DNA of 64,000 nt from Salegentibacter mishustinae (GTDB taxonomy: Bacteria > Bacteroidota > Bacteroidia > Flavobacteriales > Flavobacteriaceae): positions 1,736,001-1,800,000 of the forward strand of contig NZ_LLKN01000002.1 in NCBI RefSeq assembly GCF_002900095.1, read 5' to 3'. The position numbers and the translations under genes were made by a program. The notes under the pieces were generated by a model, which saw only the letters and a list, made by a program, of their open reading frames with translations, was not told where the DNA came from and searched no databases. Below are positions 19,042-33,214 of this stretch, in pieces. Numbering within the stretch: position 1 is the stretch's first letter; every line of letters starts with the position of its first letter.

Positions 19042-22000
19042 TTAAGCTTTTAATTTAAAATAAAAAGTACTTCCCACATCTACCTGGCTTTCTACCCAAA
19101 TGGTGCCTTCGTGCAGTTGAACGATCTTTTCTACGTGCGCCAAACCAACTCCGGTACCTTCGTTTGAATCTGTTTCTTTCACCCGGTTAAAAATGGTGAA
19201 AATGTTCTTTTTATCTTCTTCTGAAATTCCATAACCATTATCGGTTACAGAAAAAACCCAATGAGCACCTTCTCTATAAGATGCTATACGAACATCTGGA
19301 TTTCTATCAGCTGGAGTATATTTAATAGCGTTGCTAATAAGATTTTGAAAAAGCAGGCGCAATTCTACCTCGTACCCCATAATCTTTGGCAATGAACCGG
19401 CATTCACCTTAGCATTGGTATCCTTAATTCTTTTACCAAGATCGTATTTTACAACTTCTACTATCTCTTTAATGTTCACCAGGCTTTTGTCGCCGTGACG
19501 TCCAATTCTGGAATGCTCCAGTAAAGCTTTAATTTGTTCTGAAAGACGAGTTGAAGCATCTTTTATATACTGAATGTAATTTTTTCCCTTTTCATCTAGT
19601 TTCGTAGCATACATTTTCCCCAATACATCGCTACCAAACTTAATGGTGGAAAGCGGCTCCTGAAGATCATGTGAGCAAATGGAGACAAATTGTTCCAGAT
19701 CTTTATTAGCTCGCTGAAGATCGTCGTGTTGTTGCTTTAATTGATTTTCGGCATTTTTCAAGGCTGAAATATCTACACAAGTATATCTTATAGTCATTAC
19801 CTTGCCATCTACATCCTTTTCTGCCGTAGCATTTAAAATAACGGGAAGTAGATCTCCGGCAGCGGTAAGCATTTCCTGCTCCATATTCACTATAGCACCG
19901 GTATGCTTAAATTCTTTATTAGATTTTAAAGCTCTAAGCTGAGACTCTTCATTATAAAGATCATAAACCGGTTTATCTATTAAATCTTCTTTACTTTCAT
20001 AACCCAACTTTGTAACCGCCATTTCATTACATTGAACAATAAGCTGTGTTTGCGGGTCTACACTAATATGAATTACAGGATCCTCTTCATAAAAAGACTT
20101 GAAGCGCTTTTCACTGGCAATTAATTTTTCCTTTGATCTTTGCAATAAGCCAACATCTATAAAAGTAACTACTACTCCACTTATTTCGTCATTAGAATTT
20201 ATATAAGGTGAAATTCTTCGTAAATAATAAGAGTTATCCTTGGTCATCACTTGCTTTTCAAGGATCTTACCTGTTCTAAGTACCCGCTTACAACGTGTAA
20301 TGAGGTTATTTTTCCCCATACTTGAAGTAAAATGCTCTATGGGACGACCTTCATCTGAATCGATTAAATTAAAGTGCCTTTGAATTGCAGGAGTAAATTT
20401 TCTAATTCTTAAATCGGTATCAAGAAAAATAACACCAATTTCAGTGCTTTCCAGCAAATTATGCATATCGGCATTCAAAGCCGCCAGGTCTTCTACTTTC
20501 TGAAGATTTTCGGCATTTACCGTATTAATCTCCTCATTTACACTTTGCAGCTCTTCGTTGGTACTTTGTAATTCTTCATTAGAAGCCAGTAATTCTTCAT
20601 TTGCAGCTTGCAACTCTTCATTACTGGTTTCAATTTCTTCCATAGAAGTTTGTAGCTCTTCCTTGGTCTCTTTGAGTTCCTCTTCTAAATCAGCAACATA
20701 TTCTTTGGTGCGATTGGTTAGCGTTAATTTCTCAAGCGTATCAACATCTTCTAACTTAACTTCTTTTTCTATGAAAGTAATCACGAAACTCGTGCTATCA
20801 TCTTCTATCTTCTGGTGATAAGGCTTTACAATAATATCTACAGAACCTTGCTCACCATTATGCTCAAAAGAGGCATCTTTATATCTAAGTTTTGCATTAT
20901 TCTTTTTAGCCCTTTTCAGGGTGCTTTGAATAATATATTTTAGATCTGGCCCCAGCATATCCAGCAGATTTACAGAAAAACCACTCACCGGTAAATTCGC
21001 ATATTTCCTAAATTCACCAACTGCCTGTAAAATATTAAAATCTTTATCTACAAACACACTGGCACCCCCAAAGGTCTCCAGTATAGTTTCATTAAGTTCT
21101 TCTGCAAGTTTATTCTTAATTGGGTTTGAAGATTTTCTATAGGATGGGCGTTTAATTTCGCGATTATTCGCTGGCAAATTGTTTGATGCAGTTGTTGTTT
21201 GAGAAAGATCTGAAATTAACCGCTTATCTGCATTTTCATTTCGAAAAATTTTCGCTGAACGATCTATAACTTTAAAATTATTTTTTTGAGAGGATACATT
21301 TTCACTAGTTCCTAAAACCAAAATTCCGCCAACTTTTAAGGCATATTGTAAAAAGTTTAATGTTTTATTTTGAATTCCGGGCTGAAAATAAATTAAAAGA
21401 TTTCTACAGGCCACCATATCCATATTACTAAAAGGCGGATTTTTAATAATATTATGCCTGGAGAAAACCACCATTCGGCGCATTTTTTCAACTACTTTAT
21501 AGCCATCGGGTTTACTAACAAAATACTTCAGCAATAATTCTGAATCGATATCGGCAACAATACTTTCTGGGTAAAAAGCTTCACTACCAATATCTAAATG
21601 CTTTTGGGAAATATCTGTAGCAAAGATCTTTAAGTCTACACTTTTATTCTGTCGTTCTATTTCTTCATTGATGATCATCGCAAAAGAATAAGCTTCCTCT
21701 CCACTACTGCAGGCAACATCCCATAATTTAATTACTTCACCATCTTTTTTCTTTTCTACCAGTTGCGGAATTACTTCTTCTCTTAATTTTTTCCAAACTC
21801 TTTCATCTCTAAAAAATTTTGTAACTCCAATTAAAAATTCGCGATGAAGTATATCTATCTCTTCTTCGTTATGAATTAAATACTCATAGTAATCAGACAG
21901 ACTTTTACACTTACAAACATTTACCCTCCTGGCAATTCTTCTTGCAAGCGTGGCGTGCTTATATTCCCTAAAGTCAAGACCGGTTTTTTCATCTACAAAG

Positions 22001-22686
22001 CGAAGAATTTTAATTAATTCGCTTTCGTTATAATTTAAATCTCCATCTTTAAAATGAAATACAGAAGGAGCATCTATAAAGTTTTTAAGCTCTTTGGCCA
22101 TTTTAGAAACTGGCAACACATAATCTACAAGACCGGTGTTTATTGCACTTTGTGGCATCCCGTCAAACTTAGCTTCTTCGGGATCCTGCACCATAACCAT
22201 CCCGTCTCGTTCTTTTATTGCTCTCACCCCCCGCGTGCCGTCGCTTCCGGTTCCGCTTAAGATTACTGCAATAGCTTTCTCCTTTTTTTGTTTTGAAAGC
22301 GATTCGAAAAACATATCTATTGGAAGGTTTAAGCTTTGGTCTTTTGGCTTTTCTACCAGGTGTAGCTTATTATCTTCGTAAGTAAGGTTATTGGCCGGTG
22401 GAATTAAATAAATATGGCCTTGCTTTATTTTTTTTCCATCTTTAACCTCTCGAATAGGTAAATTCGTATTCTTCTTAAGAAGTTCCCCCATCATACTTTT
22501 ATAGTCTGGAGAAAGATGCTGAATAACTACGTAAGCATTCTTATCGGTTTCGGGTATGCCTTCAAAAAAAGCCTTTAGGGCTTCCAAACCTCCGGCACTT
22601 GCTCCTACGGCAATAACACGAGGCTCTTCAGTTTTAAGCTTGTTTTCCAAATCCGATTTGGAAGGGTAGTTATTTACTTTTGTCAT
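19042..22686 (-). CDS. CheB-CheR-PAS-histidine kinase hybrid
   Basis: 1214 residues. CheB methylesterase domain with Ser30 (GASAGG), His57 (IQHLSP) and Asp148 (SGTGSDGT), all present. CheR methyltransferase domain at about 225-485 ([32 protein letters not shown]). Then a PAS-like part, a long heptad coiled coil (about 665-745, repeated SNEEL units), two PAS domains, and a C-terminal DHp ([18 protein letters not shown]) plus ATPase ([13 protein letters not shown]). No Che receptor or CheA is nearby and this group of bacteria lacks swimming flagella, so it is presumably a stress or light kinase. It starts a minus-strand operon that runs into the phytochrome gene. Confidence 0.95.
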
Positions 22687-22961
22687 TTAGAAATGATTAA
22701 GTCAGACTTGTATAGAATAAAAAATAAGTAAACACCAAAAATATAAGTTAAAGCGTAGAATTATGAACTCATTTGCAATTTATATTAACAAAATATCAAT
22801 AAAACCGGGACTTCCCCTATTATACAATTTATAAATTATATTTTTAAATCTTCAAAATTAACGATATTTATAGAATATTTTTGTTAAAAAAATAAATTGT
22901 AAAAAATATTAAACAAAAATATAACTAGATACCTAAGATTATGTGATTTCTTCTAGTTAAC
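22687..22961. other. AT-rich divergent intergenic region, CheB/CheR kinase side
   Basis: About 275 bp of very AT-rich DNA between the divergent CheB/CheR kinase gene and the mla operon. I see no open gene and no strong hairpin. It should hold the minus-strand promoter of the kinase operon, but no convincing TTTG/TAnnTTTG pair could be picked out. Confidence 0.4.
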
Positions 22962-23004
22962 TGATAAATATCATTTCGGCTCAAACTTCCTAGGTTTAAA
23001 TTTA
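22962..23004 (+). promoter_or_regulatory. Fnr-type operator and promoter of the mla operon
   Basis: Palindrome TGATAAATATCA at 22962-22973 (TGA-N6-TCA) with centre 22967.5. A TAAATTTA box at 22997-23004 begins exactly 29.5 bp from the centre. This geometry puts an Fnr/Crp dimer near -41 and is shared with four other sites in the window. mlaE starts at 23019. Confidence 0.7.
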
Positions 23005-23018
23005 ACAGAAATGGCTTT

Positions 23019-23798
23019 ATGAAGTTTTTCTCCTCATATCAATCGGGTTTTAATTCCTTCTTTGTTGAGATAGGGGAAATGGGAAATTTTACCGGAAGAT
23101 ATTTCCGGGAACTTTTTAGCAGACCATTTGAATTCAGGGAATTTCTGAAACAATGTTATCAAATGGGGAATAAATCCCTGCTTTTAGTAAGCGTAACCGG
23201 GTTTATTTTAGGTTTGGTTTTCACTCTGCAATCCAGACCAACCTTAATGGAATTTGGGGCAGTTTCGTGGATGCCATCTATGATAAGTATTTCTATAGTT
23301 CGTGAAATTGGGCCGGTAATCATCGCACTTATATGTGCCGGAAGAATCGGTTCCAGTATAGGTGCCGAGTTGGGCTCTATGAAGGTAACCGAACAAATAG
23401 ATGCTATGGAAGTTTCAGGTACGAATCCGTTTAAATTTTTGGTGGTTACCAGGATTTTAGCAGCAACTATTATGCTACCAATTTTAGTAATTATAGGCGA
23501 CTTTGTGGCATTAATAGGATCGGCGATTATAGAAAACACAAATGGCGATGTCTCATTTTTACTCTATTTTAACCAGGTTTTTGAAGCCCTTGAGTTTACA
23601 GATTTAATACCCGCAACCATAAAGACCTTTTTCTTTGGTTTTGCTATAGGGCTTGTAGGTTGTTTTAAAGGCTATAACAGTAAAAAAGGAACCGCGGGGG
23701 TAGGAAAAGCATCTAACTCTGCAGTGGTTTTTACTTCTATGCTATTGTTTGTACTGGATTTTATCGCTGTTTTTATAACCGATATTTTTTATAACTAA
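23019..23798 (+). CDS. mlaE: MlaE-type ABC transporter permease (phospholipid transport)
   Basis: 259 residues with several membrane helices. The family core is plain: ISIVREIGPVIIALICAGRIGSSIGAELGSMKVTEQIDAMEVSG, then LVVTRILAATIMLPIL. It forms the membrane part of an MCE transporter that moves phospholipids between inner and outer membranes. First gene of an mlaE-mlaF-mlaD-unknown operon with gaps of 2, 6 and 17 bp. The N-terminal 50 residues before the first helix include an amphipathic stretch, normal for the family. Only E, F and D homologues are present; MlaB and MlaC are missing, as is usual in this phylum. Confidence 0.95.
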   Translation: MKFFSSYQSGFNSFFVEIGEMGNFTGRYFRELFSRPFEFREFLKQCYQMGNKSLLLVSVTGFILGLVFTLQSRPTLMEFGAVSWMPSMISISIVREIGPVIIALICAGRIGSSIGAELGSMKVTEQIDAMEVSGTNPFKFLVVTRILAATIMLPILVIIGDFVALIGSAIIENTNGDVSFLLYFNQVFEALEFTDLIPATIKTFFFGFAIGLVGCFKGYNSKKGTAGVGKASNSAVVFTSMLLFVLDFIAVFITDIFYN

Positions 23799-23800
23799 AA

Positions 23801-24532
23801 ATGGAAAAAAAACCGGTAATAGAGATAAGTCATTTATACAAAAGCTTTGGGACGGTTGATGTTCTTAAGGATTTTAATCTGAACCTTTTCGAGGGTGAGA
23901 ACCTTGTTTTAATGGGGAAATCTGGTTCTGGGAAATCGGTGATGATCAAATGTCTGGTAGGCCTAATGGAGGTTGACAAGGGAAGTATTAAAGTTTTAGG
24001 AAAGGATATCGCAGAACTAAAACAAAACGAACTGGATGAATTGCGAACCGATATAGGATTTCTATTCCAGGGCAGCGCTTTGTACGATTCTATGACGGTA
24101 CGGGAGAATTTAGAGTTTCCTCTAAGAAGGCACAGTCATAATTCTGAAAAGAAAACTCAAGCACTGGTAAAGGAGGCTTTAGATAATGTTGGATTACCAG
24201 ACACTATAGATCTTATGCCTGCCGAACTTTCTGGAGGAATGCAACGCCGAATTGCCCTGGCGAGAGCACTTATTCTAAAACCAAAGATCATTATATATGA
24301 CGAACCTACCACCGGATTAGATCCAATAACTGCGAAGGAAATTATTTTATTAATGATGAATATTCAGAAAAAATATGCAACCTCATCGCTAATAATTACC
24401 CACGATGTTGACTGTGCCCGGGTAATTTCAAATAGAATGATCTTGCTATTAGACGGAAAAGATTATGCCGAGGGAAGCTTTAATGATCTCGCTAAATCTG
24501 ATGATCCTAAAATTAAAGCCTTTTTTAAATAA
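23801..24532 (+). CDS. mlaF: MlaF-type ABC transporter ATPase
   Basis: 243 residues. Walker A GKSGSGKS at about residues 38-45, Q-loop LFQGSALYDSMTV, signature LSGGMQRRIALARAL, Walker B KIIIYDEPTTGLDP, and switch His in IITHD: a complete ATPase. It would drive the MlaE/MlaD lipid exchanger from the cytoplasmic side. It starts 2 bp after the mlaE stop codon. The signature motif SGGMQRR and TAKEI after Walker B are typical of MlaF rather than of drug exporters. Confidence 0.95.
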   Translation: MEKKPVIEISHLYKSFGTVDVLKDFNLNLFEGENLVLMGKSGSGKSVMIKCLVGLMEVDKGSIKVLGKDIAELKQNELDELRTDIGFLFQGSALYDSMTVRENLEFPLRRHSHNSEKKTQALVKEALDNVGLPDTIDLMPAELSGGMQRRIALARALILKPKIIIYDEPTTGLDPITAKEIILLMMNIQKKYATSSLIITHDVDCARVISNRMILLLDGKDYAEGSFNDLAKSDDPKIKAFFK

Positions 24533-24538
24533 AATATT

Positions 24539-25525
24539 ATGAAATCAAATTCCGGACAAAATCTAAAATTAGGAATTCTTATTGTGGCTGGACTAACCAT
24601 CTTTACACTTGGAGTTTATTTTATTGGTAATAAACAAAACCTGTTTGGAGATTCCATAATGCTAAGTTCTGTCTTTAAAAATGTGAATGGACTGCAACTT
24701 GGGAATAATGTACGTTATTCTGGAGTTAATGTAGGAACTGTGAAGAACATCAAATTTTTAAACGACACTGCAATTTGTGTAGATATGCTTATTGACCGTG
24801 AATCTGGAAACCTAATTAAACACAGTTCTTTGGCAACCATAAATTCTGACGGTTTAGTAGGAAGTATGGTTTTAAATATTCTTCCCAATAGTGAAGTATC
24901 CTCCCGCACTATAAAAGAAGGCGACACCTTAGAATCGCTTAGCCAGGTAGCTACCGCCGATATGCTTAACACTCTAAACCAAACCAATGAAAATGCTGCC
25001 CTTTTAACAGCCGATCTCTTAAAGATCACTAATAGTATTAATGCCGGAGAAGGTGTTTTAGGAGATTTACTCAAGAATGAAACCCTGGCACATAACATTC
25101 AGGAAAGCGCTGCAAATTTAAATGAAACTACCAATTCTGCCCGGGAAGGATTAAATAAAATAAATCGTATTTTAAACGCTGTAGATTATGAAAATAGCGT
25201 TGCAGGATTACTTCTTAGCGACTCTACCGCTCAAAAAAGCTTTAGCAGCATTATTGAAGATCTAAAAACTACATCCTCACAAATAAAGGAGATAAGCGCA
25301 GATTTGGGAGAGTTTTCCAATAGTCTTAATTCAGAGAAAGGTGCCTTAAATTACGTAGTTAAAGACACCTCATTTGTGAATCATCTTGATGAAAGTATGC
25401 AAAATATTGAAGAGGCTACCTTTCGCTTCAATCAGAACATGGAGGCTTTAAAACACAATATATTATTCCGAGGTTATTTTAGAAAACTGGAGCGACAAAA
25501 AGCAAGAGAAGAGAGAAAACAATAA
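24539..25525 (+). CDS. mlaD: MlaD-family MCE protein
   Basis: 328 residues: one N-terminal membrane helix (about 10-28), an MCE domain (about 37-115; FKNVNGLQLGNNVRYSGVNVGTV, then SDGLVGSMVLNIL), and a long helical C-terminal part (about 130-328) with Asn/Thr-rich heptads, ending in a basic tail RKLERQKAREERK. The extra helical part could build a periplasmic tube as in longer MCE proteins. It is the substrate-contacting part of the phospholipid transporter. Six bases separate it from mlaF. Confidence 0.93.
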   Translation: MKSNSGQNLKLGILIVAGLTIFTLGVYFIGNKQNLFGDSIMLSSVFKNVNGLQLGNNVRYSGVNVGTVKNIKFLNDTAICVDMLIDRESGNLIKHSSLATINSDGLVGSMVLNILPNSEVSSRTIKEGDTLESLSQVATADMLNTLNQTNENAALLTADLLKITNSINAGEGVLGDLLKNETLAHNIQESAANLNETTNSAREGLNKINRILNAVDYENSVAGLLLSDSTAQKSFSSIIEDLKTTSSQIKEISADLGEFSNSLNSEKGALNYVVKDTSFVNHLDESMQNIEEATFRFNQNMEALKHNILFRGYFRKLERQKAREERKQ

Positions 25526-25542
25526 TATATAAGAAGCTTAAT

Positions 25543-26043
25543 ATGAAAATAGAACATCTTGAAGAGCGCATTTTGGAGTATAAAAACTCTATCAAAACAG
25601 TTGTAAAAAAGCGTATTACCTGGGAAAATAGGACTAAAGAACTTATTGTTAACACTCTAAAAGCGGCTGAAACTACTTACCCTGTGGGATGGAAAGTACA
25701 GGAATTAAAATGGATACACACTAACGAAGCTGTGAATATCACCTTTGATTCTTTTCCGGAAGATCTAATAGATTTTACAAATAAAATTCCTACATATCAG
25801 TTTTTGCAAGGTGGAGCGCTGGTCTTTTCGCAATTGCATAATGGAGATATAGAGATATTCGTTACTTTCCCTATCCTGGAAAATTGGATAGTTCCTGAAA
25901 ATGAAATTGTTGAATTAGGAGTTTTCACCCCAGAACAAATTACCGAAAAACTAATTGTAGAAAAGATTGATGAATTTCTTAAGGAAATAATTAAATGGGA
26001 AATTCCTATTATAAAAAGTAAACTTGGCTTTAAAACACAATAA
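25543..26043 (+). CDS. Unknown protein in the mla operon
   Basis: 166 residues, soluble, without signal peptide or membrane helix. The N-terminus (about 1-45) is a charged helix, and the middle is beta-rich (WIHTNEAVNITFDSFPED ... GDIEIFVTFPILENWIVPENE). I do not recognise a family. It lies 17 bp after mlaD, so it should be on the same transcript and may act with the transporter, but nothing in the sequence shows how. It converges with the zinc-ribbon gene at 26084. Confidence 0.7.
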   Translation: MKIEHLEERILEYKNSIKTVVKKRITWENRTKELIVNTLKAAETTYPVGWKVQELKWIHTNEAVNITFDSFPEDLIDFTNKIPTYQFLQGGALVFSQLHNGDIEIFVTFPILENWIVPENEIVELGVFTPEQITEKLIVEKIDEFLKEIIKWEIPIIKSKLGFKTQ

Positions 26044-26083
26044 ATAGATTTTGAGAACTTAAAAAGTATCTCCTACCATAAGC

Positions 26084-26347
26084 CTAAATATGATCCATAC
26101 GCCACCTTTTTAATTCGGGAAGTTTTTTGATAAGTTCCTGTGCCTCTTCCAGGCTAATATCATCATGAACTTCTGCCATTTCCAAAAGCTTCACTTCTAA
26201 TTGATGTAAATTAAGAGACTTGTCAGTAAACGCTCCATCCTGAAAGCAGTCCTGGCAATAATCTTTATTTTTCGTATTATCACGATTTCTCCCGGCGGTA
26301 GCCAGCGTAAATGGCCATCCACAACTTTGGCAAATTAGCGTTTCCAT
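26084..26347 (-). CDS. Small zinc-ribbon protein
   Basis: 87 residues. N-terminal cysteine pairs CQSC (about residues 6-9) and CQDC (about 32-35) form a putative zinc ribbon (CxxC-x22-CxxC). After it come two helices, ISLEEAQELIKKLPELKRWRM being the second. This fits the Zn_ribbon_2-type small proteins often encoded beside stress genes. It follows the TerB-like gene by 11 bp and would share the Fnr-type promoter at 26788-26830. Role unknown; a metal-bound regulator or adaptor is possible. Confidence 0.75.
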   Translation of the reverse strand: METLICQSCGWPFTLATAGRNRDNTKNKDYCQDCFQDGAFTDKSLNLHQLEVKLLEMAEVHDDISLEEAQELIKKLPELKRWRMDHI

Positions 26348-26358
26348 ATTTTTGATCT

Positions 26359-26775
26359 TTAGTTGGTAAGCAATATTTTCAATTTTGAAAGCATAATGAG
26401 TTCAGATTTATTCTTTCCCGAAAAAGATGCTGCAATAGCATCAGCAGTCTCCCATATTAACTGGTTTATCTCTGGAGTAAATGCTTTTTGATGTTCTTTT
26501 TTGTACTCCTCAAATTCATTAAAAGCCCAGGCTGCTTCCGGATCATTTTCTTGTAACCAGTCAAAAGCTATTTCAATTTTATAAGCTTCATCTGTTCCAT
26601 ACTCATCGGTTGCATTATCTACAGGCACCCATTTTTCTTTAACGAGCTCCTTTAAAGTTCTTATTTCTTCGACTCTTACTACTTTATCTGAAGCTGCAAC
26701 GGCGTAAAAAAGCTTTCCGATACTGCTATAAAATTCTTCGGTAAGCGACTGCTTTTTAGAAAGTTTCATATCCAT
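26359..26775 (-). CDS. TerB-like stress protein
   Basis: 138 residues, all helical by composition. The start FYSSIGKLFYAVAASDKVVRVEEIRTLKELV resembles the acidic motif helix pair of TerB/DjlA-like domains (A-x-D-x-x-V-x-x-x-E). No catalytic residues are seen. The likely start is ATG 26775 (MDMKLS), but 26769 is also possible. It is first in a two-gene operon with the zinc-ribbon gene and has an Fnr-type operator with promoter box 13-55 bp upstream. It is probably a low-oxygen or stress response protein; the exact function is unknown. Confidence 0.65.
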   Translation of the reverse strand: MDMKLSKKQSLTEEFYSSIGKLFYAVAASDKVVRVEEIRTLKELVKEKWVPVDNATDEYGTDEAYKIEIAFDWLQENDPEAAWAFNEFEEYKKEHQKAFTPEINQLIWETADAIAASFSGKNKSELIMLSKLKILLTN

Positions 26776-26787
26776 GTGTTTTCCACT

Positions 26788-26830
26788 TAAAGATACAGCC
26801 GTGGGTATTAGTTAAAAATGATAAAAATCA
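26788..26830 (-). promoter_or_regulatory. Fnr-type operator and promoter of the TerB-like/zinc-ribbon operon
   Basis: Palindrome TGATAAAAATCA at 26819-26830, centre 26824.5. On the minus strand TATCTTTA runs from 26795 to 26788, and starts 29.5 bp from the centre, the same spacing as before mla and usp. The first codon is at 26775. Confidence 0.7.
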
Positions 26831-27039
26831 TTTTTCATGTATAATTTCGAATAAATTTAAATTACCAAAATTTTCAATACATTGATTATCAATAATATAT
26901 ATAGATTTTTAAACTTATGAATTTTTAGAATTACTTTGTATATTTAAGTATTGTTTAAGCATTTCTCCCTACTTCCCCCCATCGAAATGCAAAACAGTTC
27001 CCAGATCTTTTTTAAGTATTAATTTTAAGCTCGCCAGAG

Positions 27040-28053
27040 ATGAAGTATGTGGTATTTTTTTCAGAAAAAGATTTCAGCTCTTTTAAACTTGATCAATCTG
27101 CAGTTTTAAAAGATTGGCATTATGCTTATATCAATTCCTTGAAAATTCTAAGAAACTTTATAATTGAAAAAAAGCCTGAACTGATCATTTGGAAACATAC
27201 AACTAAAATTTCCTCTGAACTTTTTAATCTTACCCCAGAGCTTTATAATACCCAGTTACTTTCAATTATTTCTGAAGAAAGTCTTGAGACCTGGCAGCCA
27301 ATTCACAGCAAACACCATTATTTACCAGACTCCTTTTCCACCGTTGAAATCTTGAATAAAATTGATGCTTTGCTATGTCTTAATAATGAAGAAATTATTG
27401 AGAGTGAAAAAGCACAAAGGGGGTTAATTTCAAATATTGAGACTTTAAAAAATTATATAAAAGAAAAAGGAGAAGAGTTAACCTGGCATAAAAATAAAAT
27501 GATATTCAGGGAAAACAGGCATTCCAGCTTTATTTATCTCTTAAACAACGGCCTTGTGAAAACTTCCAGAATGGACCAGCTTGGAAAAGAATTAATCACC
27601 GGAATTTATCGTAATAATGAGTTGCTGGGCTTATATGGTTTTCAGAAAGATCCTATTTGCCCTGAAACTGCTACCACTCTAGAAGCTACCAAAATGTACC
27701 GTATCTTATACAAGGATTTTAAAGAAATACTTCAGGAAAACCCTGGCTTGAGCCTGGACCTGGCCCAACATTTAACCGACACTGTTTCGAGACTCAAATC
27801 ACAATTATTAGAGATGGCATATGCCTCGGTTCTAAAAAAAACTTCCAATACCATTCTTCAATTTGCCGATGATCTACAAAATCCAGATTTCCAGGGATTA
27901 AAAATCTCCAGAACCGATCTTGCAAGCATTGCCGGGATTTCTCCAGAAAGTTTTATACGAAGTCTTTCCTGCCTAAAGAAAGAAGGCATCATCTCAATAA
28001 AAGGAAAAAATATAAATATTTTGAACTCAGAAAAACTGCAACATATCACATAA
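27040..28053 (+). CDS. Crp/Fnr-family regulator with a degenerate receiver-like domain
   Basis: 337 residues. Residues 1-120 have a receiver-like strand/helix pattern (KYVVFFSEKDF, PELIIWKH, then LPDSFSTVEILNKIDALL) but no acidic pair and no phosphoacceptor Asp (WKH at that place). Residues about 145-260 form a cNMP-binding-like domain (KNKMIFRENRHSSFIYLLNNGLVKTSR). The C-terminus is a winged helix: ISRTDLASIAGISPESFIRSLSCLKKEG. Its recognition helix has Glu-x-x-x-Arg (ESFIR), the pattern that reads TGA in Crp/Fnr operators. There is no N-terminal cysteine cluster for an Fe-S centre. It stands in the middle of genes with TGA-N6-TCA operators and is the best candidate for their activator. Confidence 0.88.
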   Translation: MKYVVFFSEKDFSSFKLDQSAVLKDWHYAYINSLKILRNFIIEKKPELIIWKHTTKISSELFNLTPELYNTQLLSIISEESLETWQPIHSKHHYLPDSFSTVEILNKIDALLCLNNEEIIESEKAQRGLISNIETLKNYIKEKGEELTWHKNKMIFRENRHSSFIYLLNNGLVKTSRMDQLGKELITGIYRNNELLGLYGFQKDPICPETATTLEATKMYRILYKDFKEILQENPGLSLDLAQHLTDTVSRLKSQLLEMAYASVLKKTSNTILQFADDLQNPDFQGLKISRTDLASIAGISPESFIRSLSCLKKEGIISIKGKNINILNSEKLQHIT

Positions 28054-28082
28054 TTATAATATTTTGTTAAAAATTAATTTCT

Positions 28083-28125
28083 TGACATTTATCATTTTTT
28101 TTGAGTTCGTCTTCAGCTACTTTTA
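28083..28125 (+). promoter_or_regulatory. Fnr-type operator and promoter with no protein gene directly behind it
   Basis: Palindrome TGACATTTATCA at 28083-28094, centre 28088.5. The box TACTTTTA at 28118-28125 begins exactly 29.5 bp from the centre. Transcription would start near 28131. The following 200 bp have no credible gene and end in a hairpin, and hsp20 has its own operator behind that. Confidence 0.65.
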
Positions 28126-28130
28126 GCTTA

Positions 28131-28338
28131 ATAATCAACTGAAAATAATATAGAAATAATTTGATTTCTTTGCACTTATTAGAGTGAGAAGTCAAATTTA
28201 GAAGATATCAAAGGTATTTTTTAACCAGATATACAAATTTTACTTCGTGTAAGATCACTGATATCAACCAGGTGTTAAAGAGTAAACTTAATATCTTCTT
28301 AGGAAACAGGAGGCAATGGCTTCCTGTTTCTGTGTTTT
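28131..28338 (+). ncRNA. Candidate Fnr-controlled small RNA
   Basis: The predicted transcript begins after the promoter box at 28118-28125 and ends at a hairpin of 28303-28330: GAAACAGGAG pairs with CTTCCTGTTTC-side bases through about 11 bp (one G-U) around the loop CAATGG. A U-rich tail TGTGTTTT follows. About 208 nt. Reading frames inside are short (about 21 codons at most) and overlap the hairpin. An alternative is a long 5' leader of hsp20, but hsp20 has a separate operator at 28379 beyond the hairpin. No known RNA family was recognised. Confidence 0.5.
28303..28338 (+). terminator. Hairpin terminator of the candidate small RNA
   Basis: The stem 28303-28312 / 28320-28330 (AAACAGGAG against TTCCTGTTT, one wobble) is followed by TGTGTTTT. 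It is strong for this AT-rich DNA. The tail is an imperfect U-run, so efficiency is uncertain. Confidence 0.6.
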
Positions 28339-28378
28339 AGAGCCTTTCCTAAGCCACTTTAAAAATTATTCAAATAAC

Positions 28379-28421
28379 TGATTTTCATCATATTAATTCC
28401 TCTTTTTAGATTGTAATTTAA
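28379..28421 (+). promoter_or_regulatory. Fnr-type operator of hsp20
   Basis: Palindrome TGATTTTCATCA at 28379-28390, centre 28384.5. At 29.5 bp the sequence is TAATTTAA (28414-28421), a weaker match than the TAnnTTTA found behind the other sites. hsp20 starts at 28464. Confidence 0.55.
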
Positions 28422-28463
28422 GGTGCTTAAAAACCTAATTATTAACCATTAAATTTTAATGTT

Positions 28464-28943
28464 ATGTCTATCACTAAATCTGGTAATCGTAGAACTCCAG
28501 CAATAGGAAGTTCACTTTTAACTAATGATCCATTTTTTTCTGACTTAATGGATACTAAAAGAGGAATTTTTAATTTAAACCGTTTTTTTAATGGAGATTT
28601 TGACAAAGATCTATTTCCTGCATTAAATGTAAAGGAAAAAGAAAACGAGTTTGAAATTGAACTTGCAGCTCCCGGACTTTCAATAGATGACTTTAAAATC
28701 TTTATCGAAGATGGTATTTTATCAGTTTCTGCCGAAAAGGAAAATAAGATCGAAGAAGAAAAAGAAGGTTTTGTTAGAAAGGAGTTTAACTACAACAGCT
28801 TTTCCAGAAATATAAGTCTGCCAGAAGAAGTAGATATGGATAAAGAAGTAGAAGCCAAATACAAAGAAGGTATTTTAAAAATGAGCCTTAAGAAAAGAAA
28901 GACTGCAAAGGCTAAAAAAGCCAAAACGGTAAATGTATCTTAA
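28464..28943 (+). CDS. Hsp20/alpha-crystallin small heat-shock protein
   Basis: 159 residues. The alpha-crystallin domain spans about 50-145 (FPALNVKEKENEFEIELAAPGLSIDDFKIFIEDGILSVSAEKE, then FSRNISLPEEVD, then YKEGILKMSLKK). A Lys-rich tail (KAKKAKTVNVS) takes the place of the usual I-x-I motif. It holds unfolding proteins as an ATP-independent chaperone in the cytosol. It has its own Fnr-type operator and is followed by a perfect hairpin terminator, so it is transcribed alone. Its position next to usp and Fnr genes suggests induction by low oxygen or growth arrest, not only heat. Confidence 0.95.
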   Translation: MSITKSGNRRTPAIGSSLLTNDPFFSDLMDTKRGIFNLNRFFNGDFDKDLFPALNVKEKENEFEIELAAPGLSIDDFKIFIEDGILSVSAEKENKIEEEKEGFVRKEFNYNSFSRNISLPEEVDMDKEVEAKYKEGILKMSLKKRKTAKAKKAKTVNVS

Positions 28944-28948
28944 AAACG

Positions 28949-28985
28949 ATGCTGTCCCGAAAAATTTCGGGACAGCATTTTGTTT
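28949..28985. terminator. Bidirectional terminator between hsp20 and the WG-repeat gene
   Basis: ATGCTGTCCCGA and TCGGGACAGCAT are perfect inverted arms (28949-28960 and 28967-28978), followed by TTTGTTTTTTT. A-rich DNA on the other side would serve the convergent gene. Confidence 0.85.
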
Positions 28986-28987
28986 TT

Positions 28988-29611
28988 TTATAGTTTATGA
29001 ATTTTCCATTTTCCATTAGGTCCCTTCACGCTTACCATATTTTCTCCCAACCATTTTGCATTAATTGCAGGAGCTGTTCTTAATTTCTTCTTAGAAACTG
29101 TAACCGGAAAAGGCCCTTCCAAATACTTTACTACTTCCCCTTCTTTATTTAGAAGAACTACATCATATTTATAAGAAATAACCCCTTTACCTAGCAGTTG
29201 GTTTTTACCAAGTCTCTCTTCTTCAAGTTTTATGGCCAGCGCTTTGCCATTAGAAAAGTTACTTACATTAAGATATATTGGTTCGATAATGGTTTTTCCG
29301 CGGGTATTTATGAAGCCATAGTAATTAATACCATTTTCCTGCTTTTTGATAATGGCTCGTTCATCTTTTAATTGCGGGTATCGAATTCCCTCTACCCCAA
29401 TTTTTCCACTTTTTGGATCTTCATTAGAAATAAGGTCTTTTCTAAGTGAAACCACCATATCCCCTTTAGCATCTACAAATCCCCAGGTATCGCCTTGTTT
29501 CACAGCTGTAAACCCATTTTCCTGATTAGCTACAAAATCAAATTCTTTCGGTTCTTGCGCGAACAGCACAAATGGAATACTTATTAAGATTCCCAATATT
29601 AAATTTTTCAT
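28988..29611 (-). CDS. WG-repeat exported protein
   Basis: 207 residues. Signal peptide (about 1-19, FVLFAQ). WG-type repeats are visible: DTWGFVDAKGDMV, NYYGFINTRGKTIIEP and NGKWKIHKL. Such repeats build small beta-structures, and most members have no known function. Product is probably periplasmic or surface located. It faces the usp operon; each gene has its own Fnr-type operator in the 180-bp gap (29667-29678 for this gene, 29730-29741 for usp). Confidence 0.85.
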   Translation of the reverse strand: MKNLILGILISIPFVLFAQEPKEFDFVANQENGFTAVKQGDTWGFVDAKGDMVVSLRKDLISNEDPKSGKIGVEGIRYPQLKDERAIIKKQENGINYYGFINTRGKTIIEPIYLNVSNFSNGKALAIKLEEERLGKNQLLGKGVISYKYDVVLLNKEGEVVKYLEGPFPVTVSKKKLRTAPAINAKWLGENMVSVKGPNGKWKIHKL

Positions 29612-29635
29612 CTTTAAAAGTTTTAAAATTACCTT

Positions 29636-29678
29636 TAAATATAAGCCAAAAGCCTATGAATAAATATGATACACGTCA
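29636..29678 (-). promoter_or_regulatory. Fnr-type operator and promoter of the WG-repeat gene
   Basis: Palindrome TGATACACGTCA at 29667-29678, centre 29672.5. On the minus strand TATATTTA runs from 29643 to 29636, starting 29.5 bp from the centre. The first codon is at 29611. Confidence 0.7.
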
Positions 29679-29729
29679 TACTACACAAAAGCTATTTTAA
29701 CTGTAAAGGCCTTAAATTCAGAAACAAAC

Positions 29730-29772
29730 TGATTTTCCTCATAGTTTAAACTTACTTCTTGGATTAAATTTA
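29730..29772 (+). promoter_or_regulatory. Fnr-type operator and promoter of the usp operon
   Basis: Palindrome TGATTTTCCTCA at 29730-29741, centre 29735.5. TAAATTTA at 29765-29772 starts 29.5 bp from the centre. The first usp gene begins at 29792. Confidence 0.7.
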
Positions 29773-29791
29773 TAATTCAAAGGTTTAGAAA

Positions 29792-30646
29792 ATGAGAAAG
29801 ATAATTTTACCCACAGATTTTTCGGAAAATGCATATAATGCTTTGCGATATGCCTGCCAGCTTTTTAAGTATGAAAAAAGTGAATTAATTCTTTTACACG
29901 CTTACGCAGAAAAGGTTTATACCGATGAAAACTTGGTAAGCAACGAATTGATAGATGAGTTAAAAGCAGTCACTAAAAAGAAAGCAGAAACAGAACTGAC
30001 TGCAATAAGTTCAAAAATTCATGATGAGTTTTGCAATCCCAGGCATAGGATAAAATTGATCGCGGCTTTTGGTGATTTGGTAGATGAGGTAAACAATTTA
30101 GTGAATTCAGAAAATGCTGATCTTGTGGTGATGGGAACCCGAGGATTTACCAATAATAGTAAACTGGGAATTGGGAGTAATACCCTACTTGTGCTAAAAT
30201 ATGTGCAATGCCCTGTTTTGGCAATCCCTGCTAATTTTAAATACCAGGATCCGCAGAATATCCTATTCCCAACTAATTTTTTAATTCCGTATCAAAAAAG
30301 AGAATTAAAAGTTGTTGGGGAAATTGCTCGCGATTTCAATTCTAAAATTCACTTTCTATATTTATCTAAGCATAAAGCCACTTCTAACAGGCAAAAGGAC
30401 AACCTGGAATTTTTAAAACAACAATTCTACAATATTATTACAGAAGAACATCAACTAGATGAATCAATAAAGGAAAAGGCCATAGAAGATTTTATAGCAA
30501 CCAATGAAATAGATCTTCTGGTTATGGTAAATTCCCGTCACACCTATTTAGAAGATATGCTATTAACATCTACTATAGATAAAGTAGGCCTACATCCAAA
30601 AGTCCCGCTTCTTGCTTTACAAAATTTTAATAGGGAATGCACTTAA
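29792..30646 (+). CDS. Universal stress protein, double Usp domain (first of three)
   Basis: 284 residues with two Usp domains, about 1-145 and 150-284. The first starts MRKIILPTDFSENAYNALRYA and keeps the nucleotide-binding pattern G-x2-G-x9-G-S (MGTRG ... GS). The second domain lacks that pattern (VMVNSRHTYLEDMLLTSTIDK). Cytosolic, probably ATP-binding. It leads an operon of three such genes, an ATP-cone nuclease and a beta-CASP hydrolase under an Fnr-type operator. Stress survival in low oxygen is the likely role. Confidence 0.93.
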   Translation: MRKIILPTDFSENAYNALRYACQLFKYEKSELILLHAYAEKVYTDENLVSNELIDELKAVTKKKAETELTAISSKIHDEFCNPRHRIKLIAAFGDLVDEVNNLVNSENADLVVMGTRGFTNNSKLGIGSNTLLVLKYVQCPVLAIPANFKYQDPQNILFPTNFLIPYQKRELKVVGEIARDFNSKIHFLYLSKHKATSNRQKDNLEFLKQQFYNIITEEHQLDESIKEKAIEDFIATNEIDLLVMVNSRHTYLEDMLLTSTIDKVGLHPKVPLLALQNFNRECT

Positions 30647-30658
30647 AACTTAGAAATC

Positions 30659-31507
30659 ATGAAAAAAATACTCTTACCCACAGACTTTTCAGAGAACGCA
30701 TATAATGCCATTACCTATGCGCTTAAAGCATTCAAGGACGAAGAATGTAGATTTTACCTTCTAAATACCTACACCCCGGTTTTATACGATTCAGAATATA
30801 TTTTATACAACAGCACTCAACCCAATCTTGCTGAAGCTTACCAGAAAAATTCCCAAACAGGCTTAAAAAAAGTACAACGAAAGATTAAACGTGATTTCGA
30901 TAACCCAAATCATCATTTCGAAAAAATTTCGGCCTTTAATCTTTTAATAGACGAGATGAAAGAACAGGTGAAATCTAAAGAAATAGACCTGGTAGTAATG
31001 GGAACCCAGGGAGCCACCGGTGCCGAAGAGATCTTAATTGGCACCAACACGGTTCAGGCTATTAATAAACTAAAGGTTCCTCTGTTAACCATCCCTTCAG
31101 AATATGAATATAAACCACCTCTAAACATTTTATTTCCTACAGATTTTCAATTGCATTTTAGCGCTCCGCAATTGGAACCTATTTTAAATGTGGCAAAAAA
31201 TCATAACTCGAAACTCAATATTCTGCACATTTTCTTCGGAAAAGATCTTGATGAAAAACAGGAAGAAAATAAAAAGAACCTAAGTAAAGTTCTTGAAGAC
31301 TTTCCGCATCAATTCAATACAATTGAAGATAAAAGTGTAACGAAAGCCATCGAAAAATTTCAGGAGCAAAACACGGTAGATTTACTCTTTATGGTAAACA
31401 ATAAGCGTAGTTTTTTTGAGAACCTTTTGTTTAGACCGGTAGTCAATAAAATAGGTTTTCATATTAAAGTTCCATTTATGGTAATCCCATCAGGAAAATT
31501 CAGCTAA
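30659..31507 (+). CDS. Universal stress protein, double Usp domain (second of three)
   Basis: 282 residues, start MKKILLPTDFSENAYNAITYA. N-terminal domain with MGTQGATGAEEILIGT, i.e. the G-x2-G-x9-G-T nucleotide pattern; the C-terminal domain has lost it (FMVNNKRSFFENLLFRPVVNK). A clear paralogue of the gene 12 bp upstream; the two arose by duplication and have diverged strongly, by eye well under half identical outside the first 20 residues. Cytosolic. Same operon and regulation as its neighbours. Confidence 0.93.
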   Translation: MKKILLPTDFSENAYNAITYALKAFKDEECRFYLLNTYTPVLYDSEYILYNSTQPNLAEAYQKNSQTGLKKVQRKIKRDFDNPNHHFEKISAFNLLIDEMKEQVKSKEIDLVVMGTQGATGAEEILIGTNTVQAINKLKVPLLTIPSEYEYKPPLNILFPTDFQLHFSAPQLEPILNVAKNHNSKLNILHIFFGKDLDEKQEENKKNLSKVLEDFPHQFNTIEDKSVTKAIEKFQEQNTVDLLFMVNNKRSFFENLLFRPVVNKIGFHIKVPFMVIPSGKFS

Positions 31508-31509
31508 TT

Positions 31510-32343
31510 ATGAAAAATATACTCATCCCCACCGATTTTTCAGTCAATGCATGGAAAGCTACTGTTTATGCCTTTAGTTTATTTCAGAATGACTTGTGCA
31601 ATTTTTATTTTTTAAATGCCTGTAAACCTGAGTTCTATACACCAGATGTAAATGGTCACAGCTTATCTCAGGCAAAAGCCGAAAATAAAATTTTAATGGA
31701 AAAATTACTAAAGGAAGTTTCCATTATAAACAAAAACCCAAACCACAGGTTTAAATCTTTAATAGTGGGCTCCTGGCTGAATGATGCAATAATCGAGATT
31801 CAAAAAGATATAATTTTTGACCTTATTGTTATGGGAACACAAGGTGAGAACGAACCCGATGATAAGATTTTTGGGACCAACAGTATGAATGTGATAGAAA
31901 CGGTAGATCACATGCCAGTTTTACTAATTCCAGATCAAAGCGTGCACGTACCGGAAGTAAAAATGGAAATGGTATTAGCCACAAGGTTTGACAAATCTTT
32001 TTCTATCGCCGAAATCAATTTTCTAATCGATATGACCAAGAAATTTAAGGCCAGCATTAGAATTCTCTATATCCAGGATACCGAAGATCTTTCTGAAGAA
32101 CAGGAAAATAAAAAAGAAGAATTGCATGAACATTTTGAGAAAATTTCTCATAGTTTTCATACGTTAACCAACATTGAAGTTACTAAAGGGATTCATAGCT
32201 TTATTCAAAGTAGAAATAGCGATATATTAGTTTTAAACCATAAGAAAAGAGGTTTTTTCAGAAATCTTTTCTCTAAATCCTTACTCAAAGAATTAGGGAA
32301 AAAACCGCAAATTCCTATAATTTTTATGCCCGCAGATCTTTAA
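31510..32343 (+). CDS. Universal stress protein, double Usp domain (third of three)
   Basis: 277 residues, start MKNILIPTDFSVNAWKATVYA. The first domain keeps MGTQGENEPDDKIFGT; the second is degenerate (VLNHKKRGFFRNLFSKSLLKEL). It starts 3 bp after the previous usp gene, and 34 bp before the ATP-cone gene. It is the most diverged of the three. No membrane segment. Function by family: stress endurance, perhaps by ATP-dependent binding of partner proteins. Confidence 0.93.
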   Translation: MKNILIPTDFSVNAWKATVYAFSLFQNDLCNFYFLNACKPEFYTPDVNGHSLSQAKAENKILMEKLLKEVSIINKNPNHRFKSLIVGSWLNDAIIEIQKDIIFDLIVMGTQGENEPDDKIFGTNSMNVIETVDHMPVLLIPDQSVHVPEVKMEMVLATRFDKSFSIAEINFLIDMTKKFKASIRILYIQDTEDLSEEQENKKEELHEHFEKISHSFHTLTNIEVTKGIHSFIQSRNSDILVLNHKKRGFFRNLFSKSLLKELGKKPQIPIIFMPADL

Positions 32344-32377
32344 ATTCAAGAATTATTATTTCTGATAAAACACTAAA

Positions 32378-33214
32378 ATGGATATTTCCAACTTACAAGT
32401 TATTAAAGCTTCTGGCGAAAAAGCGAAGTTTTCTATTGATAGGGTTGCTGAGTCTCTAAGACGCTCTGGCGCCAATGATGAATTGATAAATAGCACCCTG
32501 GAAAAACTAAAAAGCGAGCTTTATGATGGTATCACTACCAAAGAAATTTATAATCGTGCATTTAGCTTGCTTAAGGAAGGAAATAAAACCAGTGCTTCAA
32601 AATATAAATTAAAGACCGCTATTTACGAATTGGGACCAACAGGTTTTCCTTTTGAAAAATTTATTGCCGCGCTATTAAGTCATAGTGGTTATAAAACCGA
32701 AACCGGGAAAATATACCAGGGCAAATGTGTAACTCATGAAATTGACGTTGAAGCTAAAAGCGATAAAAAATTGATATTGATAGAATGTAAATTTCACAAT
32801 GCCGGTAGAAACAGCGATGTGAAAATTCCTCTTTATATAGATTCAAGATTTCGAGATATAAAAAACTTTAGAAATAACGGGAAAAACAAACTGGATTTTG
32901 AGGAAGGTTGGGTAGTTACCAACACAAGGTTTACTGCAGATGCGATAAGATATGGTAAATGCAGTTATCTTAAACTATTAAGCTGGGATTATCCCGAAGG
33001 AGAAGGTATTAAAGATAGAATAGACAAATTGGGCTTATATCCAATTACTGTTTCTACCCTTCTTTCAGAAAGAGAAAAGAACTTTTTACTTAGCCGTGAT
33101 GTGGTTTTATGCCAGGAACTTATTAATGATACTTTTTACCTGGACCATTTAGGAATTCATAATCCTCGCAAAAAAAGGATTTTAAAAGAGATGGAAGAAC
33201 TTTGTAAACATTAA
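32378..33214 (+). CDS. ATP-cone domain fused to a PD-(D/E)XK nuclease
   Basis: 278 residues. Residues about 5-90 are an ATP-cone (VIKASGEKAKFSIDRVAESLRRSGA), the nucleotide-sensing domain of NrdR and class I/III ribonucleotide reductases. Residues about 95-200 are an Mrr-like restriction-endonuclease fold: HEIDVEAKSD and LILIECKFH give D...ExK, the metal-binding set. The last 70 residues are helical and may bind DNA. It may cut DNA in response to the (d)ATP level; that is inference. It sits between usp genes and a beta-CASP hydrolase, 4 bp before the latter. No methylase is near, so it is not a restriction system. Confidence 0.82.
   Translation: MDISNLQVIKASGEKAKFSIDRVAESLRRSGANDELINSTLEKLKSELYDGITTKEIYNRAFSLLKEGNKTSASKYKLKTAIYELGPTGFPFEKFIAALLSHSGYKTETGKIYQGKCVTHEIDVEAKSDKKLILIECKFHNAGRNSDVKIPLYIDSRFRDIKNFRNNGKNKLDFEEGWVVTNTRFTADAIRYGKCSYLKLLSWDYPEGEGIKDRIDKLGLYPITVSTLLSEREKNFLLSRDVVLCQELINDTFYLDHLGIHNPRKKRILKEMEELCKH

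Follow-up and report, generated by a model that had tools for sequence, protein, structure and literature searches.

The stretch analyzed here, which we call the window, comprises 64,000 nucleotides of the Salegentibacter mishustinae genome (contig NZ_LLKN01000002.1, positions 1,736,001 to 1,800,000), and within a 6.8 kb region of it six TGA-N6-TCA palindromes lie on both sides of a regulator gene (27040–28053, plus strand), whose 337-aa product, hereafter 27040, combines a pseudo-receiver with a CRP/FNR domain. The first operator, TGATAAATATCA (22962–22973, plus; box TAAATTTA, 22997–23004), is 5' of mlaE (23019), which opens a run (23019–25525, plus) of permease, ABC ATPase and MCE-type genes; the permease is recognized by Pfam (MlaE), the other two by eye. 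The second, TGATTTTTATCA (26819–26830, minus; box TATCTTTA, 26795–26788), is 5' of a TerB-like/zinc-ribbon pair, "TerB" being the label of a first-pass annotation of this DNA, since a Pfam scan of that protein gives no match. The operator TGACATTTATCA (28083–28094, plus; box TACTTTTA, 28118–28125) is placed to serve a small RNA of ~209 nt (28130–28338, plus) with a 5' hairpin, a long central hairpin and a 3' terminator hairpin (28302–28331), and TGATTTTCATCA (28379–28390, plus; box TAATTTAA, 28414–28421) is placed to serve hsp20 (28464–28943, plus; Pfam HSP20). The last two, TGACGTGTATCA (29667–29678, minus; box TATATTTA, 29643–29636) and TGATTTTCCTCA (29730–29741, plus; box TAAATTTA, 29765–29772), would serve a WG-repeat gene (29611–28988) and an operon (29792–33214, plus) of three usp genes and an ATP-cone + Mrr_cat nuclease gene, in which Pfam identifies the first Usp and the nuclease, and the middle two Usp were assigned by eye. 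All six palindromes and their boxes, including the weaker one at hsp20, are found where the first-pass annotation had placed them.

At five of the six sites, a TAnnTTTA box starts exactly 29.5 bp from the palindrome center (a gap of 23 nt); the sixth, at hsp20, has TAATTTAA instead. On its own, the palindrome shows no significant excess in the window (22 copies for 16.9 expected, a count that 14 of 100 shuffles reach), and local significance appears when the fixed box spacing is added: the 6.8 kb region holds five pairs at gap 23, vs. a mean of 0.006 and a maximum of 1 in 1000 dinucleotide shuffles, and only three further palindrome–TAnnTTTA pairs occur in total at the 20 remaining gaps between 15 and 35. 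That the arrangement exceeds chance, as first proposed, is borne out by these counts. In class II activation geometry, the activator site is centered at −41.5. A study in Flavobacterium psychrophilum (PMC9723704) maps a sigma-A box, TAnnTTTG, at −12 to −5, so a distance of 29.5 bp to the box start would put the palindrome center at −41.5, in agreement with the class II position suggested in the first pass. By this analogy, the six palindromes are predicted to be class II activator operators of sigma-A promoters, which would activate rather than repress.

The same pairing extends over the whole genome (3.82 Mb), where the 43-mer of palindrome plus TAnnTTTR occurs 21 times, vs. 3 for a reversed-pattern control. 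Scanning gaps from 8 to 38 (figures from 100 of the 101 matches listed) gives at least 13 matches at gap 23, whereas the 30 remaining gaps average 2.9 and none exceeds 7 (Poisson P about 1e-5); 13 is an undercount, because one window site was listed with a different, overlapping box. Searched over the genome without the box, the degenerate pattern TGAYNNNNRTCAT shows no excess (86 matches vs. 105 for its reverse), so that the signal emerges only once the promoter box is included. Across 120 Flavobacteriaceae genomes, the 43-mer is found 2087 times vs. 308 in the control, and TGA-N6-TCA with TAnnTTAG 208 times vs. 72 for the reversed pattern. Sixteen of the 21 own-genome sites lie outside the window region, and the local regulon originally described does not stand. 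Eighteen of the 21 precede an open reading frame (ORF), one precedes the small RNA and two, L002, inside a long open frame, and L009, where no ORF of at least 40 aa starts within 330 nt, look false as promoter sites. The genes that follow genome sites include some with known low-oxygen roles, ccoS, ccoN and hemN, all over curated cut-offs (CcoN is cut at the locus end), and Pfam assigns further downstream products to NhaA, Usp, an S30AE hibernation-type factor, cytochrome c, SDR and an HlyD-type protein; a globin-like ORF suspected by eye behind the L006 site had no Pfam match and was dropped.

Operators recur at the same genes in related genomes. The comparison covered 36 of 48 fetched loci plus the window (L097–L108, 12 loci with another protein family, were left out), and an operator with a TAnnTT box was scored when it lay on the correct strand and at most 260 nt upstream of the best match by tblastn. 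An operator stands 5' of the best usp1 match in 35 of 35 loci possessing one and of the homologues of mlaE in 15 of 15, of the WG-repeat gene in 10 of 10, of the TerB-like gene in 15 of 17 and of hsp20 in 13 of 16, counts that refer to best matches rather than proven orthologues, with some usp matches coming from the locus of the other paralogue. The targets named in the first pass are supported in this way. Among the 13 hsp20 sites, the box is TAnnTTAG in 7 and TAATTTAA in 4. By operators, spacing, conservation and membership, all read from sequence, the six window sites belong to a genome-wide Fnr-type regulon, and we infer that its signal is low oxygen.

The greatest novelty among these findings lies in the small RNA. 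With the start at 28130 inferred from the box position, it has a folding energy of −58.3 kcal/mol (z −5.64), a value reached by 0 of 200 shuffles, and its 3' end is a terminator-like hairpin of 13 pairs. Searches with nhmmer gave 16 copies in 14 of 37 sources (the 36 loci and the window), four weak opposite-strand matches being left out of the set; the model core of the window copy spans 28158–28335. At the regulator locus, 16 of 16 copies follow an operator with its box at the fixed distance. Gillisia limnaea (L065) has a further, weaker match, whose model start lies 59 nt 3' of an operator with the box TATCTTAG. S. sediminis and S. flavus carry two copies each, every copy with its own operator, and the window and eight near Salegentibacter loci have one strong copy only. 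Both sides have changed in 18 of 52 pairs, and the covariation score is 0.253 vs. 0.181 (0 of 500 shuffles), with slid versions of the structure scoring 0.08–0.10; the structure was derived from the same alignment as the one tested, which favors it. Rfam gives no match at E ≤ 1 within 22000–33000 of the window, and in 12 distant RNA loci it gives two weak matches, both below the gathering score. What had been suspected to be a small RNA is, judging from folding, covariation and its operators, a conserved structured RNA.

Homologues extend through the family. A first model (R1) finds them in 30 of 249 family genomes and a second (R2) in 61 of 397 Flavobacteriaceae genomes (E ≤ 1e-3, strict filters); a 295-genome draw across the class, some of it from the same family, returns our own genome and one marginal match (G407, E 9e-4). 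At least two matches are listed for 25 of the 61 R2-positive genomes, partly as opposite-strand echoes, and true neighboring copies follow each other at ~180-nt steps. We searched for operators at 27 further loci (L112–L138), one per genome, with TAnnT as the box and the operator outside the RNA model: 24 have a same-direction operator within 900 nt upstream, vs. 2 in the antisense control, and in 19 of these 24 the nearest box is TAnnTTAG at the same spacing. The R1 match L131, lacking an operator, is probably false; L127 also lacks one, with only ~310 nt of contig upstream; and for L138 the copy in the list has the wrong orientation, a minus-strand match having its own operator. When 33 of 38 distant copies were folded (five short or truncated ones were left out), all had z < −2, with a mean of −7.2, for copies that had been chosen by a structure-scoring model. 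Once the 3'-terminal 48 nt are removed, the mean z is −2.7 and 22 of the 33 stay below −2. The R2 alignment has compensatory changes in 22 of 33 pairs. The tandem units in L112, L116, L126 and L133 seemingly fall into two sequence sub-types per array.

In Escherichia coli, FnrS is a small RNA under an Fnr-type operator with an intrinsic terminator. The window RNA shares an Fnr-type operator and a terminator-like end with it and differs in belonging to a family of ~180-nt three-hairpin units, some in tandem, without an Rfam match. By analogy with FnrS, its most likely role is that of a regulator acting in trans and produced when oxygen is low; to our knowledge, these bacteria mostly lack Hfq. 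A different role, as a protein-binding decoy or scaffold rather than a base-pairing RNA, with tandem copies raising the dosage, is doubtful but deserves serious consideration: in its favor, the tandem units are variable in sequence while their hairpin plan is fixed and the 3' hairpin is near-constant; against it, the window and the eight near loci have a single strong copy, and the 3' hairpin is also terminator-like. The Rfp RNAs of F. psychrophilum (PMC9723704) are likewise independent structured small RNAs from the same bacterial family; "Fnr" and "Crp" are absent from the main text of that paper. The newness of the present family is judged against Rfam. In one library, under the terms used, literature listings and passages of PMC9723704 and PMC8510549 turned up no account of the regulon, the receiver-CRP proteins or the RNA.

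The product of 27040 matches PF00027 (cNMP_binding) and PF13545 (HTH_Crp_2) over cut-off, which places it in the CRP superfamily, and it has the Glu-x-x-x-Arg helix pointed out in the first pass, E303 and R307 being invariant in 21 aligned sequences. Its N terminus contains neither a Cys cluster nor a CxxC, so 27040 does not class as an iron–sulfur (Fe-S) Fnr. Residues 1–127 have a predicted receiver-like fold (AlphaFold, with intact receivers in the alignment; predicted local distance difference test score 80.6), for which Foldseek finds 13 matches at E ≤ 1e-3, the ten best being response regulators or receivers (best E 4e-5); Pfam Response_reg gives no match in 27040. The receiver residues D9, D10, D52 and K104 (S. 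sediminis numbering) are E, K, K and D in 27040. All four are retained in 26 of 36 proteins; S. sediminis and S. flavus have them, as does a second protein of our own genome, L022. The window protein has lost them, as have those of eight further Salegentibacter (a single clade, 100/100) and that of Gillisia marina, and intact forms (S. sediminis, S. flavus) stand beside degenerate ones within the genus Salegentibacter. In G. marina (L085, 10001–11014), the phosphosite D has become N and the Lys a Thr, a loss that is probably separate from that of the Salegentibacter clade, with two changes on the tree. The helix-turn-helix domain of 27040 is strongly conserved and the receiver is not: nine Salegentibacter retain the helix G-I-S-[TP]-E-S-F-I-R-S-L-S in open frames, each with operators at no fewer than three checked neighbor genes.

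By alignment and predicted structure, 27040 is a CRP/FNR domain behind a degenerate receiver-like fold that has lost its phospho-acceptor, and it probably binds the same operators independently of phosphorylation. Atypical or pseudo-receiver response regulators keep a receiver-like fold but lack its conserved acidic residues and Lys; 27040 is like them in this respect and differs in its output, a CRP/FNR domain. The first-pass description of an Fnr-type regulator is upheld for domains and helix, and it fails for the absent Cys cluster and the degenerate receiver in front. Two observations count against our view of 27040: the S. maritimus protein (L091) has an Asp aligned with the phosphosite, its other key residues being gone, and no operator stands 5' of the regulator gene in any of the 37 loci, which also removes the autoregulation implied by a regulon "around its own regulator."

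Our genome encodes five PF13545 proteins, two of them of ~340 aa, 27040 and L022. The L022 product is a receiver-CRP protein with an intact receiver and the same recognition helix as 27040; its gene starts ~40 nt behind a PAS histidine kinase gene and is followed by a usp gene with an operator, and 2 of the 21 genome sites lie in the 3 kb downstream; this second site cluster holds both an intact paralogue and a kinase. The best solved relatives of the kinase PAS domain are FixL 1d06 (E 9.5e-20) and DosP, and its proximal His and distal Arg align with those of FixL 1d06. A scan of the fetched loci with two motifs, one of which demands the His, found 15 PAS kinases irrespective of adjacency to a receiver-CRP gene, with the His in 15 and the Arg in 14 (alignments read by eye). 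A His aligned with that of FixL is found in non-heme PAS domains as well, a point that speaks against oxygen sensing. We consider that the intact receiver-CRP beside this FixL-like kinase, a candidate heme protein, probably carries an oxygen signal. FixL-FixJ-FixK is a cascade of alphaproteobacteria; the likeness lies in a FixL-like PAS kinase beside a regulator with likely cbb3 oxidase and hemN targets, and the difference in a receiver and a CRP-type DNA-binding domain on one protein, so that FixJ and FixK would here be fused into one step.

The flavobacterial Fe-S Fnr (N-terminal KCEQCII, with Cys residues that we take, at the level of the family, to bind Fe-S) has a regulon with the same operator and spacing and a similar recognition helix (TESAIRVLSQFKKEGLI vs. 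PESFIRSLSCLKKEGII), the difference being that the candidates in our own genome are receiver-CRP fusions. We sorted the 120 family genomes by receiver-CRP (E ≤ 1e-20 and a frame of at least 345 aa) and Fe-S Fnr (E ≤ 1e-60). Mean site numbers are 20.0 (control 2.3) with receiver-CRP only (n = 28), 29.8 (control 2.1) with both (n = 26), 15.4 (control 3.5) with Fe-S Fnr only (n = 42) and 4.4 (control 1.8) with neither (n = 24). Fe-S Fnr proteins fetched from 10 of these 42 genomes all show (10 of 10) a CxxC close to the N terminus and the helix TESAIR. Fe-S Fnr gives no match in our own genome at E ≤ 1e-30, and the 5-kb surroundings of the two receiver-CRP genes, which make up 0.6% of that genome, hold 7 of its 21 sites (P 2e-11). 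Because sites are kept without Fe-S Fnr and cluster at these genes, receiver-CRP proteins very likely read them, and at the window sites the product of either 27040 or L022 is a candidate. The RNA is distributed similarly: R1-positive genomes are 13 of the 54 with receiver-CRP vs. 0 of the 66 without (P 1e-5), and R2-positive ones 13 of 54 vs. 1 of 66 (G051, weak). Among the matches listed, a copy lies within 3 kb of a receiver-CRP gene in at least 9 of the 13 genomes and within 15 kb in at least 12; G032 has none within 15 kb among them.

Several observations weigh against a receiver-CRP reader. G048 has 33 sites and neither regulator at the cuts used, in an assembly that is 82% complete, so its regulator may be missing from the assembly; G098 has a receiver-CRP and no site excess (6 vs. 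7). The sites of the Fnr-only class imply that other CRP/FNR proteins probably read them too. A third protein of our own genome, L025 (198 aa), also has an E-x-x-x-R helix, VETVIRAM.

The operators might be read by the intact L022 protein alone, 27040 being a decaying or repurposed paralogue without a direct role. The intact receiver, the adjoining kinase and the two nearby sites of L022 would agree with this, as would the degenerate receiver of 27040; decay is hard to reconcile with a helix-turn-helix conserved in open frames of nine Salegentibacter, each with its operator-bearing neighbors, and we judge this explanation unlikely. Improbable, in our estimate, is that L025 or another, yet unseen CRP/FNR protein is the reader and the receiver-CRP neighborhood incidental: the genome does have five PF13545 proteins, and L025 shares the helix pattern, but sites cluster at the two receiver-CRP genes and are retained in receiver-CRP genomes without Fe-S Fnr. 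A chance origin, for which one could cite that an AT-rich genome abounds in TGA-N6-TCA and TAnnTTTA alike and that neither the palindrome in the window nor TGAYNNNNRTCAT genome-wide is enriched alone, can be rejected with near certainty because of the spacing peak, the reversed control, the conservation before homologues and the dependence on regulator presence.

We regard as likely, taken as a whole, an explanation in which class II operators define an Fnr-type low-oxygen regulon, receiver-CRP proteins read them, and one of them drives the RNA. In many Flavobacteriaceae, the regulon would probably be read by Fe-S Fnr; in our own genome and in 27 more of the sampled ones, none of which has a clear Fe-S Fnr, the readers would most likely be receiver-CRP proteins with the same kind of helix. 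A FixL-like kinase acting on the intact L022 protein would be the probable route of the oxygen signal, and the 27040 paralogue, its receiver presumably no longer phosphorylatable as usual, would probably bind operators independently of phosphorylation. One operator would drive the ~209-nt structured RNA, single-copy here, whose relatives elsewhere appear at times in tandem, beside receiver-CRP or usp genes. A broader proposal, which we hold as evenly balanced, is that a clade-restricted, tandem-capable three-hairpin RNA family lies under low-oxygen operators whose reader, by genome, is Fe-S Fnr or a FixL-like kinase/receiver-CRP pair; that the local receiver-CRP of Salegentibacter lost its phospho-switch; and that the RNA arrays form a dose-graded post-transcriptional arm. 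These results offer a testable candidate oxygen-type regulon for a major marine bacterial group, a natural case in which an operator set is kept while the regulator class varies by genome (Fe-S sensor vs. two-component receiver-CRP), and a family of structured RNAs supported by covariation and equipped with operators.

Two further proteins were noted. A 128-aa membrane-like protein (LFLAKFWGWYL...; L021, 1092–1475, minus) has its own operator in the genome of the window and, in other genera, neighbors usp genes and RNA arrays (L112, L114, L116, L119, L126 and others); it has no match in Pfam (L112 copy) or NCBIfam (L021 and L112 copies). A large ORF (19042–22686, minus) adjoins the mla operon and appears by eye to be a CheB/CheR/PAS/histidine-kinase fusion; a similar protein in S. 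sediminis (L057) is a possible partner of the intact receiver-CRP there.

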